Source: Sporichthya brevicatena
GTDB taxonomy: Bacteria > Actinomycetota > Actinomycetes > Sporichthyales > Sporichthyaceae
Length of the DNA: 45,076 bases
Reading direction: 5' to 3'
Assembly: GCF_039525035.1 (NCBI RefSeq)
Contig: NZ_BAAAHE010000004.1
Location: 147,482-192,557, forward strand
A model generated the notes under the pieces. It had not been told where the DNA came from. It saw only the letters and a list, made by a program, of their open reading frames with translations, and made no database searches. A program made the position numbers and the translations under genes. Below are positions 38,156-42,287 of the stretch, piece by piece (position 1 is the stretch's first letter; each line of letters begins with the position of its first letter).

Positions 38156-38434
38156 ATGAGCTACCCCGACCAGCCGGAGCCCGCCGGCGCCCTGAGCACG
38201 ATCACCGACGAGCGCGTCGAGACCTCGACCGGCGACGGTGATCACGACCGCTTCGCCCACTACGTGGTCCGCAACAAGCTCACCGAGGCGATGGTCGAAG
38301 GCACCCCGCTGCAGGCGCTGTGCGGCAAGGTGTGGGTCCCCAGCCGCGACCCCAAGAAGTACCCGGTGTGCCCGGAGTGCAAGGAGATCTACGACGGCAT
38401 CCCGCCGGGCGAGGGTGACGACTCGGACGCGTAG
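38156..38434 (+). CDS. DUF3039 small zinc-ribbon-like protein
   Basis: A 92-residue actinobacterial protein of unknown function. The central HYVVRNKLTEAMVEGTPLQALCGKVW and the following YPVCPECKEIYD contain three cysteines (CGK and CPEC) likely to bind zinc together with another ligand such as the upstream His. The N-terminus is acidic and disordered. It starts at ATG 38156, apparently leaderless. It precedes the molybdo-hydroxylase-like gene and the helicase gene. Confidence 0.9.
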   Translation: MSYPDQPEPAGALSTITDERVETSTGDGDHDRFAHYVVRNKLTEAMVEGTPLQALCGKVWVPSRDPKKYPVCPECKEIYDGIPPGEGDDSDA

Positions 38435-38484
38435 GGCGGCGACATCGCTTCATCGCGTACGGATCGGCACGGGGGGAACGGAAA

Positions 38485-40515
38485 CTGGACGGACGTCTGC
38501 ACGCTGCGCTGACTCGCAGCCCGCATGCGCATGCCGCCGTGCTGGGCGTCGACACCGCAGCCGCGCTGCGCTCGACCGGCGTCGTCGACGTGCTCGTCGC
38601 CGCGGACCTGCCCGGCCAGTTCTGGACCGGGCCGGTCCGGGCCGACCGGCCCGTGCTGGCCGCCGGGGTGGTCCGGCACGTCGGTGAGCCGGTCGCCGCG
38701 GTGCTCGCGACCGACCCGGCGAGTGCGACGCGGGCGGCGTACGCCGTGGGCGTGGCGTACCGCCCGCTGCCGGAGGTGTCCTGGTTCCGCGGCGAGGAGG
38801 CCGACCCCCTGCACCCGGACGGCAACGTCGTGCGGACGGTCCACGTCCGCCGCGGGGAGTGGCCGAAGGCGGCCGGGACCGTCGTCGAGGGCAGCTACAA
38901 CACCCACGGCTGGGTCCCGCGTCAGGAACGGTTCGGCACCGACGGCGCTCCCGCCGTGCCGGCGCTGATCGAGGCGGAGCCGACGGACACCGGCGTCCGG
39001 ATCGCCGCGCCGCGGCGCTGGCACCCGGAGGACCGCGACCAGATCGCTCAGTGCCTGAACCTGATCCCGCGTCAGGTCGAACTCCGCTCGACCGGGTCGC
39101 GTGACCACTCCACCGACCTCGGGGGCCCGGTGCTCGCGGCGCTGTTCGCCCGCCGGCACCACCGGCCGGTCTCCCTCGTCGTCGGTCCGCCGACGCACGG
39201 GCAGGGCGGCGGACCCTTCGTCGTCGCCCGGTACCGGCACCACGTCCGGCCCGACGGGACGCTCGCGGCGGTGTCCGGCGAGATCGAGATCGAGATCGGC
39301 CCGTACGCCGGGATCGGGGAGTCTTTGGTCGCGGAGCTCTGCGCCGTCGGCGTCGGGCCGTACCGGGTGCCGGCGGTCGACCTCCGCGTCCGCGCGCTGC
39401 GGAGCACCACCCCGCCGCCGCTGATCGAACCCGGGGCCGCGGCGGCCGCGGTGACCTTCGCGGTCGAGGCGCAGCTGGACCGGTTGGCCGATCTGCTCTC
39501 GTACCCGCAGGGGCGCGAGGCGGCGCGGTTCGTCGCCGACCGGCGCGCGGTCCGCGAGCGCAACCTGCTCGGTCTCGACGAGCCGTTCCCGACCGGGCAG
39601 ATGCCGCTCGAGGCCTCGCCGCTGCCGGCGCTGCTCGAGCTCCTCGACGCCGCGCCCCTGCCGTCGATGCCGGACGGTGGACGCGATCACGCCTGGGGCG
39701 TCGGCACCGGGTTCGGCGTCGTGCCGTTCGGGACGGCCGAGGGATTCGCGCTGCCGGTGACGGCCACGGTGTCCCACCGCGCCGGCACGGTGTCGTGCCC
39801 CGCGGCCGAGGGCGACGAGTCGCTGGAGGCCGCCGCCGTCGCCGTGGCGACGCGGGCCTTCGACGTCCCGATGCGCTTTGCGGCGACGGGGGAGCCGGCG
39901 CCGGGCGGGTCCGCGGCCACGGTCGGCCGCGCCGTCACGGCGGCGGTCGAGGCCCTGACCGCCCCGGCGCGGGAGCGGCTCGGGAGCCAGGTCGGGCTCT
40001 CGCCGGCGCTGCTGCGGGCCGCCGCGGGCCGGCTGCGGTCCTTCGACGGCGTCGTCGACGTCCCGCTGGCCGAGGCCCTCGCGGGCGACCCGGACCCGGC
40101 CGAGGCGACGTACGTCCCGCCGGACACCGAGGTGCTGGACGGTGACGGTCAGGGCGACGCGTTCGCGGGCTTCGCCTACGCGGCCGCGCGCGCGGTGCTG
40201 AGCCTGACGGCCCGCGGTGAGGTCGAGATCGTCCAGCTCGACGTCGCCGCCGACTGCGGGCAGGTGCTCGACGACGTCCGGGCCCGGGCCGCGGTCGACG
40301 CGTCGGTGTCGACCGGCGTCCGCCTCGCGCTGCCGGAGGCGACCGTGCGGCCGGACGCCGTCCGGCTCCACCTGCTCGACGGCCCGGTGCCCAAGGGCGC
40401 CGCCGGGGTCGCGGCCGGCGCGGTCGCCGCCGCGCTGCGGTCCGCCCACGACGCGGGCGCCGGCGGGGACGCCGAGGTGCTGCCGATCCCGGGTGTGTCC
40501 TGGAGCAGCTCATGA
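38485..40515 (+). CDS. degenerate xanthine dehydrogenase-like molybdopterin subunit (probably cofactor-less)
   Basis: A 676-residue protein if it starts at CTG 38485. The first canonical start, GTG 38539, would remove RLHAALTRSPHAHAAVLGVD, a conserved opening of the molybdo-hydroxylase large subunit. A GGGGGG ribosome site (38471-38476) lies 8 nt before the CTG, and no ATG/GTG/TTG is in frame upstream. The hammerhead domain (VVRHVGEPVAAVLA) and GEIEIEIGPYAGIGESLV/VGPYRVPAVDLRV segments are recognisable. The molybdopterin loop (RGFG, after a TTPP segment) reads STTPPPLIEPGAAAAAV, and no catalytic glutamate loop is seen. No iron-sulfur or FAD subunit gene is adjacent. It may be a pseudo-enzyme with a structural role. 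Its TGA overlaps the helicase ATG by 4 nt. Confidence 0.68.
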   Translation: MDGRLHAALTRSPHAHAAVLGVDTAAALRSTGVVDVLVAADLPGQFWTGPVRADRPVLAAGVVRHVGEPVAAVLATDPASATRAAYAVGVAYRPLPEVSWFRGEEADPLHPDGNVVRTVHVRRGEWPKAAGTVVEGSYNTHGWVPRQERFGTDGAPAVPALIEAEPTDTGVRIAAPRRWHPEDRDQIAQCLNLIPRQVELRSTGSRDHSTDLGGPVLAALFARRHHRPVSLVVGPPTHGQGGGPFVVARYRHHVRPDGTLAAVSGEIEIEIGPYAGIGESLVAELCAVGVGPYRVPAVDLRVRALRSTTPPPLIEPGAAAAAVTFAVEAQLDRLADLLSYPQGREAARFVADRRAVRERNLLGLDEPFPTGQMPLEASPLPALLELLDAAPLPSMPDGGRDHAWGVGTGFGVVPFGTAEGFALPVTATVSHRAGTVSCPAAEGDESLEAAAVAVATRAFDVPMRFAATGEPAPGGSAATVGRAVTAAVEALTAPARERLGSQVGLSPALLRAAAGRLRSFDGVVDVPLAEALAGDPDPAEATYVPPDTEVLDGDGQGDAFAGFAYAAARAVLSLTARGEVEIVQLDVAADCGQVLDDVRARAAVDASVSTGVRLALPEATVRPDAVRLHLLDGPVPKGAAGVAAGAVAAALRSAHDAGAGGDAEVLPIPGVSWSSS

Positions 40516-42287
40516 GCCGCGCCGAACACCTGCCCCCCGCGTTCCCGGACCGGGCGCCGTGGGGCACCGCCGGGAAGCTGCGTGCGTGGCAGGAGGCCGC
40601 GCTCGAGTCGTACCACTCCCACCCGCGCAAAGACTTCCTCACGGTCGCGACCCCGGGCGCCGGCAAGACGACCTTCGCGCTCCGGGTCGCCGCCGACCTG
40701 CTCGAGCGCAAGATCGTCCGCGCCGTCACGGTCGTCGCCCCGACCGAGCACCTGAAGACGCAGTGGGCCGAGGCGGCCCAGCGGGCGGGCATTCGCATCG
40801 ACGCCGGGTTCCGCAACGCCGACGGCAAGACGGCCCGCGGTTTCTCCGGCGTCGCCGTCACCTACGCCGGTGTCGCCGCGCACCCGATCCTGCACCGCAA
40901 CCGCACCGAGGCGCGGCCGACGCTGGTGATCCTCGACGAGGTGCACCACGCCGGCGACGCGAAGAGCTGGGGCGAGGCGATCCTCGAGGCCTTCGAACCG
41001 GCGACGCGCCGTCTCGCGCTCACCGGAACGCCCTTTCGGTCCGACACGAACCCGATCCCGTTCGTCACCTACGCCCCGGGGCCGGACGGCATCGACCGCA
41101 GCGTCCCCGACTTCGTCTACGGCTACGGCGAGGCCCTCGCCGACGCGGTCGTCCGGCCGGTCGTGTTTCTCGCCTACGCCGGGCAGATGCGCTGGCGCAC
41201 GCGCGCCGGGGACGAGCTCGCCGCGACCCTGGGCGAGCCGCTGACCAACGACCTGACCAACCAGGCCTGGCGGACCGCGCTCGACCCCGGCGGTCAGTGG
41301 ATGCCGGCGGTCCTGCGCGCCGCGGACCAGCGGTTGAACGAGGTGCGCCGCCACGTACCCGACGCCGGGGCCATGGTCATCGCCACCGACCAGAACAACG
41401 CCCGCGCCTACGCGCGCCTGATCCGGGAGATGACCGGCACCGCGCCGACCGTGGTCCTCTCGGACGACAAGGGTGCGAGCAAGCGGATCGCCGAGTTCTC
41501 CGACAGCGAGGACCGTTGGCTGGTCGCGGTCCGCATGGTGTCCGAGGGCGTCGACATCCCGCGCCTCGCCGTCGGCGTCTACGCGACCAACGCCTCCACG
41601 CCGCTGTTCTTCGCCCAGGCCGTCGGGCGCTTCGTGCGAGCCCGGCGCAAGGGCGAGATCGCGTCGGTGTTCCTCCCGACCGTCGCGCCGTTGCTCAAGC
41701 ACGCCGCCGAACTGGAACTGACGCGGGATCACGTCCTCGGCAAGCCCGCGCCGGCGGACGAGGACCTGTTCGCTCCCGAGGAGGCGCTGCTCGAGGCCGC
41801 GCAGCGGGAGCAGGGCAATGGCGACCTGCTCGGGGAGTGGCAGGCGCTCGAGTCCGAGGCCAACTTCGACCGGGTCATGTTCGGGGGAGCGGAGTTCGGT
41901 CTCCCCGCGTCGCCCGGCAGCGTGGAGGAGCAGGAGTACCTCGGCCTGCCCGGCCTGCTCGACGCCGACCAGGTCGCGACGGTTCTGAAGAAGCGTCAGG
42001 CCGACCAGCTCAAGGCGGCCCAGCGCCGCGCCCGCCGGGAGGGGAGCACCATCGCGCCCCCGGCCGAGGCGCGACCTGTCGTCACCTCCGCGGAGCGCAG
42101 CGCCCTGCGTCGCGAACTCCACGCCCTCGTCGGCGCCTGGCACCACCGCAGCGGCGCCCCGCACGGCGCGATCCACGCCGAGCTCCGTCGCGTCTGTGGC
42201 GGCCCCGCCACCGCCCAGGCGAGCGTCGACGACCTCCGCCGCCGCATCGACACCCTCCGGAAGTGGCAGACCCAGGGCAAACCCTGA
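40512..42287 (+). CDS. superfamily II DEAD/DEAH-box helicase
   Basis: A 591-residue helicase of the DEAD/DEAH (XPB/UvrB-related) superfamily. Motif I is ATPGAGKTT, motif II is DEVHH within ILDEVHHAG, motif III-like is LTGTPFR, and the second RecA domain has VRMVSEGVDIPRLAVG and motif VI QAVGRFVRARR. A roughly 200-residue C-terminal extension, charged and partly coiled, has no motif I recognise. ATG 40512 overlaps the preceding gene (ATGA), so the two proteins are co-made. The target (DNA or RNA) is unknown. Confidence 0.9.
   Translation: MSRAEHLPPAFPDRAPWGTAGKLRAWQEAALESYHSHPRKDFLTVATPGAGKTTFALRVAADLLERKIVRAVTVVAPTEHLKTQWAEAAQRAGIRIDAGFRNADGKTARGFSGVAVTYAGVAAHPILHRNRTEARPTLVILDEVHHAGDAKSWGEAILEAFEPATRRLALTGTPFRSDTNPIPFVTYAPGPDGIDRSVPDFVYGYGEALADAVVRPVVFLAYAGQMRWRTRAGDELAATLGEPLTNDLTNQAWRTALDPGGQWMPAVLRAADQRLNEVRRHVPDAGAMVIATDQNNARAYARLIREMTGTAPTVVLSDDKGASKRIAEFSDSEDRWLVAVRMVSEGVDIPRLAVGVYATNASTPLFFAQAVGRFVRARRKGEIASVFLPTVAPLLKHAAELELTRDHVLGKPAPADEDLFAPEEALLEAAQREQGNGDLLGEWQALESEANFDRVMFGGAEFGLPASPGSVEEQEYLGLPGLLDADQVATVLKKRQADQLKAAQRRARREGSTIAPPAEARPVVTSAERSALRRELHALVGAWHHRSGAPHGAIHAELRRVCGGPATAQASVDDLRRRIDTLRKWQTQGKP

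Follow-up and report, generated by a model that had tools for sequence, protein, structure and literature searches.

The window analysed here is a 45,076-nucleotide stretch of the genome of Sporichthya brevicatena (G000), which we compared with two other Sporichthya genomes (G001 and G002) and two genomes of a sister genus, the five together forming the set for its own family (f1). A homologue of the large subunit of xanthine dehydrogenase (XDH)-type molybdo-hydroxylases lies between genes for a DUF3039 protein and a helicase (Table 1). Its product matches the Pfam families Ald_Xan_dh_C (2.5e-21), MoCoBD_1 (7.6e-13) and MoCoBD_2 (5e-8), all above their gathering cut-offs, so that the domain set of xanthine oxidase-family large subunits (hammerhead and two MoCoBD domains) is present, with the hammerhead truncated at its start. 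The top NCBIfam model is pucD (TIGR03196), but the score of 188.5 bits falls far short of the cut-off set for that model (783.65), and the best PDB match by sequence is 1rm6_A (2.9e-18). The gene occupies the same locus in all three Sporichthya genomes; the G002 copy is split across two contigs. As a preliminary description of this DNA had stated, the frame is intact over about 2 kb. On the opposite strand, too, a frame of 686 aa is open. Because open frames are common on either strand here, we gave the length of the frame no weight and turned to codon positions and dN/dS instead.

Table 1. Features of the XDH-like locus, in window coordinates.
Feature	Position	Strand	Basis
DUF3039 gene, upstream neighbour, 5' border of missing cassette	38156..38434	+	Pfam DUF3039 8.1e-31
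GGGGGG, presumed ribosome-binding site	38471..38476	+	sequence; GGGGGGAACGG(A/C)A-CTG kept in 3/3 Sporichthya
CTG, probable start codon	38485..38487	+	same codon in 3/3 Sporichthya genomes
XDH/PucD-like molybdo-hydroxylase large-subunit homologue, 676 aa, cofactor motifs lost	38485..40515	+	Pfam, NCBIfam, PDB by sequence, dN/dS
a/b hammerhead remnant, starts at profile position 14	38491..38772	+	Ald_Xan_dh_C, protein residues 3-96
GSRDHSTD, replaces molybdopterin loop GVGGAFGxRED	39094..39117	+	alignments
TTPPPLIEPGAAAAA, replaces NNPPCGAMRGFGAVQ	39406..39450	+	alignments
KGAAGV, remnant of GAKGVGEPPT; catalytic Glu segment deleted	40393..40410	+	alignments
ATGA, helicase start over XDH-like stop	40512..40515	+	sequence; ATGA in 3/3 Sporichthya genomes
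Helicase, DEAD/DEAH-type (ResIII, DEAD)	40512..42287	+	Pfam ResIII 2.5e-16

We take G.GGAFG.RED, RGFG and GQG to be the molybdopterin loops of this family and the Glu of GVGE to be catalytic. Aligned with relatives, the Sporichthya protein has EPGA in place of RGFG within TTPPPLIEPGAAAAA (AMRGFGAVQ to LIEPGAAAA), while EVGQGFVT has become EGDESLEA with loss of the GQG motif, a gap takes the place of SASRQT, and G000 and G001 lack the GVGE segment; the tail in G002 reads KGAAGLATG. The motifs are lost in all three Sporichthya genomes, in G002 where its two contigs cover the gene. The replacement of the RGFG loop by a Pro/Ala sequence, already noted in the preliminary description, is therefore one loss among several, the FGG loop, GQG and the catalytic-Glu segment having gone as well. 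As a control from the same genome, two paralogues (contigs C42 and C35) keep RGFG or RGAG together with GVGE and have a coxS neighbour. MoaA is present in all five f1 genomes, indicating that the cofactor can probably be made. In mouse AOX1 the Glu is essential, the E1265Q variant being inactive (PMC2671166).

The partner subunits are also missing, as had been claimed: tblastn within the window found no CoxM- or CoxS-like gene near the XDH-like gene, and no Fer2_2 match falls on its contig (C4), all eight matches in G000 lying on other contigs. Both genomes of the sister genus have the order DUF3039, coxM (FAD), coxS (2Fe-2S), full-length large subunit, helicase; there, the partners are present and the motifs of the large subunit have decayed. 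The distance from DUF3039 to the large subunit is 1635 and 1618 in the sister genus versus 329, 333 and 338 in Sporichthya, and the Sporichthya N-terminus is 33–38 residues shorter than in the orthologues L039 and L044 (residues counted by hand). The gene would go back to an XDH-family enzyme of three subunits encoded between DUF3039 and the helicase, in which it specified the molybdenum-cofactor subunit. About 1.3 kb would have been lost in Sporichthya, comprising both partner genes (FAD and 2Fe-2S) together with the original start and first 33–38 codons of the large subunit. Translation would now most likely begin at a CUG after the G-run, the helicase would be translated through the ATGA overlap, and the protein would be unable to hold the cofactor or to hydroxylate in the known way.

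To judge whether such a gene is maintained, we relied on the pair G000 and G001, which differ at 48, 25 and 139 sites at codon positions 1, 2 and 3, with no gap in 676 codons. In 2000 runs of a neutral simulation, the corresponding means were 67, 94 and 51, and the third-position count never exceeded 71. For the same pair, GY94 gave a dN/dS of 0.072 (2dlnL of 273.5 against omega = 1; neighbours 0.012–0.046) and NG86 gave 0.193 (neighbours 0.027–0.152), a discrepancy that probably arises from GC-rich third positions; by region, the NG86 ratio ranged from 0.11 in MoCoBD_1 to 0.29 in residues 341–475. The GY94 estimates with G002 are saturated for this gene (dS 11.6 and far above), and the G000–G001 pair alone is quoted. 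By GY94, dS is 0.63 for the XDH-like gene versus 0.64 for the helicase. The codon-position bias and the dN/dS of 0.07–0.19 show that the XDH-like gene is under purifying selection, weaker than on its neighbours, between G000 and G001; the Sporichthya comparison as a whole spans only three species. The gene is an enzyme homologue that lacks catalytic residues and yet is constrained, which is what defines a pseudoenzyme, and the dN/dS comparison that the preliminary description had proposed bears out its view of a maintained pseudo-enzyme.

A decaying pseudogene, its frame open merely because the DNA is GC-rich, would account for the loss of partners and start, for a dN 4–12 times that of the helicase (HELI), DUF3039, AlgH and Adk, and for a very long stem branch (1.84, see below); moreover, 52.6% of the neutral runs contained no stop, so that an open frame by itself proves little. 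This reading is nevertheless already disfavoured and quite improbable, given a third-position count of which the neutral runs fall far short, the rejection of omega = 1, the gapless alignment of G000 with G001 and a frame that is still open at 71–72% amino-acid identity to G002. A chance open frame is likewise disfavoured, by the codon-position pattern (139 versus the neutral maximum of 71) and by dN/dS.

The history of the locus was traced by a class-wide search of 296 genomes, 82 of which contain relatives at E<=1e-30; 80 stretches and the window, 81 in all, were examined. DUF3039 and/or the helicase lie nearby in 26 of the 27 stretches of genus g19 (family f18), which we take to be Streptomyces, the exception being L073. 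Among the three stretches of family f9, L044 has DUF3039 and the helicase, L080 the helicase, and L047 only Lrp and HPPD, whereas all four genes are absent nearby in the remaining 45 stretches outside family f1. The f9 proteins keep RGFG, the catalytic Glu and all other motifs, and their partner genes are present. Orthologues with intact RGFG and Glu, which the preliminary description had held would speak against its reading, do exist, beside the helicase (L044, L080) or beside Lrp and HPPD (L047). Their occurrence at the same locus identifies the motif-less state as derived; it does not show the Sporichthya copy to be active.

In the 80 aligned rows (L037, the tail of the G002 gene, being excluded), the catalytic-Glu column holds E in 44, A in 26, S in 1, D in 2 and a gap in 7. 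By group, it is A or S in 27/27 g19 rows, E in 3/3 f9 rows and D in both rows of the sister genus; the gaps belong to the three Sporichthya rows, of which L036 stops at a contig end, and to four cut or broken rows that come from elsewhere than this locus (L094, L101, L104 and L112). Of these, L101 belongs to another family; its XDH-type gene encodes only 508 aa and drops from the alignment before GQG, possibly through a frameshift or as a pseudogene.

Named genomes gave a set of 80 loci, taken from at least 537 relatives: 78 from Streptomyces or Kitasatospora, one from an 'Actinobacteria bacterium' and one from Microtetraspora. These loci (L115–L194) share genomes with the 27 g19 loci (L040–L042, L055–L078), and the two counts are not additive. 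None of the 80 relatives in the alignment-based scan was recognisably of family f1, and a single-query scan of named genomes gave no match. The catalytic Glu is replaced by Ala in 80/80 of these loci, drawn from the at least 537 relatives. In Streptomyces and Kitasatospora, FGG and RGFG are altered in the large subunit and GQG is kept in most. Across 112 loci searched, the Fe-S cysteines are intact in all 109 Fe-S partners found, and the FAD-type motif pair, with small variants, is present in 101/101 partners found. The median omega between named pairs is 0.135 (range 0.048–0.758; dS 0.1–0.5; 2379 of 3160 pairs, which are not independent). The Streptomyces/Kitasatospora locus is a candidate pseudo-complex fixed across these genera, and the retention of GQG in most loci beside intact partners suggests that the complex there may still move electrons. 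It is from these relatives, with GQG mostly kept and motif-intact FAD and Fe-S partners, that one could argue for the Sporichthya protein still being an enzyme, with altered cofactor binding or a different chemistry; the FGG loop, RGFG, GQG, SASRQT, the Glu segment and the partners are all gone in Sporichthya, however, and we regard this as very improbable.

A tree of 36 of the 80 alignment rows, which carries a long-branch warning from the program, places f9 as the sister group of g19 and f1 combined (97/98). The stems measure 0.99 (f1) and 1.84 (Sporichthya) changes per column and the branches within Sporichthya 0.07–0.31, a pattern consistent with an episode of rapid change after which constraint returned. 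The losses in Streptomyces and f1 may have been one event: the tree joins the groups (97/98), but with the long-branch warning, and what replaces the Glu is not the same in each (Ala or Ser; Asp; deletion). By these comparisons, the Sporichthya gene stands last in a series at a single locus, running from intact f9 through Streptomyces/Kitasatospora, Glu-less with partners, and the sister genus, motifs decayed with partners, to the loss of the partners. The series is a natural one in four grades (an intact enzyme, a Glu-less subunit with partners, a motif-less subunit with partners and a motif-less subunit alone), along which the loss of cofactor, partners and start codon can be followed.

The start codon is the weaker point of the overall reading. 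The first GTG of the frame (38539) is preceded by no in-frame ATG, GTG or TTG, and the G-run lies 8 nt before the CTG, both as first described. The gap between them is 8, 7 and 7 nt in G000, G001 and G002 (block GGGGGGAACGG(A/C)A-CTG), and a 1-nt indel directly 5' of the CTG separates G000 from G001, suggesting that the sequence upstream is not read in the XDH-like frame. Codons 2–18 differ between G000 and G002 at 1, 1 and 8 sites at positions 1, 2 and 3 (p=0.0034), and between G000 and G001 at just two sites, both third-position. The conserved CTG, the suitably spaced G-rich site, the lack of a usual start upstream and the coding pattern from the CTG onward make it likely that translation is initiated at CUG. 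The CTG start proposed in the preliminary description thus gains comparative support from 3/3 genomes, and what stands against it is efficiency: CTG is a poor initiator in mycobacterial reporters and is not enriched among selected leadered starts (0.03%; PMC4633059), and wild-type and M1 initiator tRNA are both inefficient at starting on CUG in E. coli (PMC11497404). The poor mycobacterial initiation, and an in-frame ATG at codon 4 of G002, three codons past the CTG, leave some room for a maintained protein whose start is GTG 38539 in G000 and some other codon in relatives, an account that otherwise overlaps the one we favour. We consider it possible but doubtful, as this GTG is ATC in G002, codons 2–18 appear coding (8 of 10 changes in third position) and the G-run spacing is correct for the CTG only. 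This CTG is a candidate start, backed by comparison between genomes, in a native bacterial gene.

At its other end, the gene overlaps the helicase by xTGA in all five f1 genomes (ATGA in 3/3 Sporichthya, GTGA and TTGA in the sister genus, by sequence), and the overlap is kept in G002 despite an extra C-terminal tail. Co-translation with the helicase is therefore likely. Of the coupling that had been described, the overlap is real; a functional link does not follow from it, since elsewhere the helicase occurs without the XDH-like gene. The helicase directly follows DUF3039 in 4 of 25 loci outside f1 (flanks of <=1.5 kb examined): in L213, L218, L222 and L224, the two matches begin about 0.24–0.29 kb apart and no XDH cassette lies between them, so that AlgH-DUF3039-helicase may be the older unit. 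An obligate partnership with the helicase is not supported by these four loci, and in Streptomyces the XDH-like gene and the helicase are kilobases apart. The overlap and its persistence in G002 could also mean that the frame is kept only to bring ribosomes to the helicase, the protein itself being idle. Coupling predicts an open frame but no constraint on amino acids, and in view of the dN/dS of 0.07–0.19 it is insufficient alone; we deem this explanation improbable.

We therefore favour, with a probability of about 0.7, a cofactor-free pseudoenzyme that is probably CUG-initiated, co-translated with the helicase and kept by selection. The fold that remains would most likely serve in binding or as a scaffold, its target being either a small ligand or another protein, perhaps the co-translated helicase. 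Retention of a cofactor-free fold for the sake of binding is the mechanism with the best support, and the protein would contain no Mo. A more far-reaching scenario, in which the enzyme locus was converted stepwise, first, in Streptomyces and Kitasatospora, to a dead molybdo-subunit with intact electron-transfer partners and then, in Sporichthya, to a cofactor-free, CUG-initiated ligand sensor or scaffold for the helicase with which it is co-translated, is tentative and rather unlikely. The AlphaFold2 model of the protein is poor (pLDDT 59.8, pTM 0.36), and the top Foldseek matches, although XDH-family chains (1rm6, 1jro) over the full length, reach a TM of only ~0.25; we accordingly make no structural argument.

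Compared with known systems, the protein is homologous to PucD (TIGR03196), XDH (1jro) and the alpha subunit of 4-hydroxybenzoyl-CoA reductase (1rm6) over the hammerhead and both MoCoBD domains, but differs from them in lacking cofactor motifs, catalytic Glu and partner subunits, in its shorter N-terminus and in scoring far below the PucD cut-off. The Streptomyces/Kitasatospora large subunit resembles it in lying between DUF3039 and the helicase, in the replaced Glu and in the altered FGG and RGFG, and is unlike it in its full length, usual start, motif-intact partners and, in most, GQG. Family f9 XDH shares part of the neighbourhood and is the nearest intact group on the tree, but has every motif and its partner genes. 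The Sporichthya gene is a probable pseudoenzyme from the xanthine oxidase family; among titles and abstracts of the open-licence literature, none was found to deal with a comparable pseudo-XDH. In passages of PMC13118837, DUF3039 and xanthine dehydrogenase appear in separate, unlinked gene-cluster lists, and PMC4255298 lists SCO2947 as a DUF3039 gene. The Streptomyces pseudo-XDH is arguably the larger finding; its annotation is probably that of a xanthine dehydrogenase subunit, assigned through homology, and it is directly testable in laboratory strains. The CoxS-like (2Fe-2S) proteins of the Streptomyces/Kitasatospora loci L116 and L186 carry long low-complexity extensions (404 and 479 aa versus ~165 in the sister genus, starts chosen mechanically), and L136, from a record named Microtetraspora glauca, has a Streptomyces-type locus and protein, possibly from a mislabelled strain.
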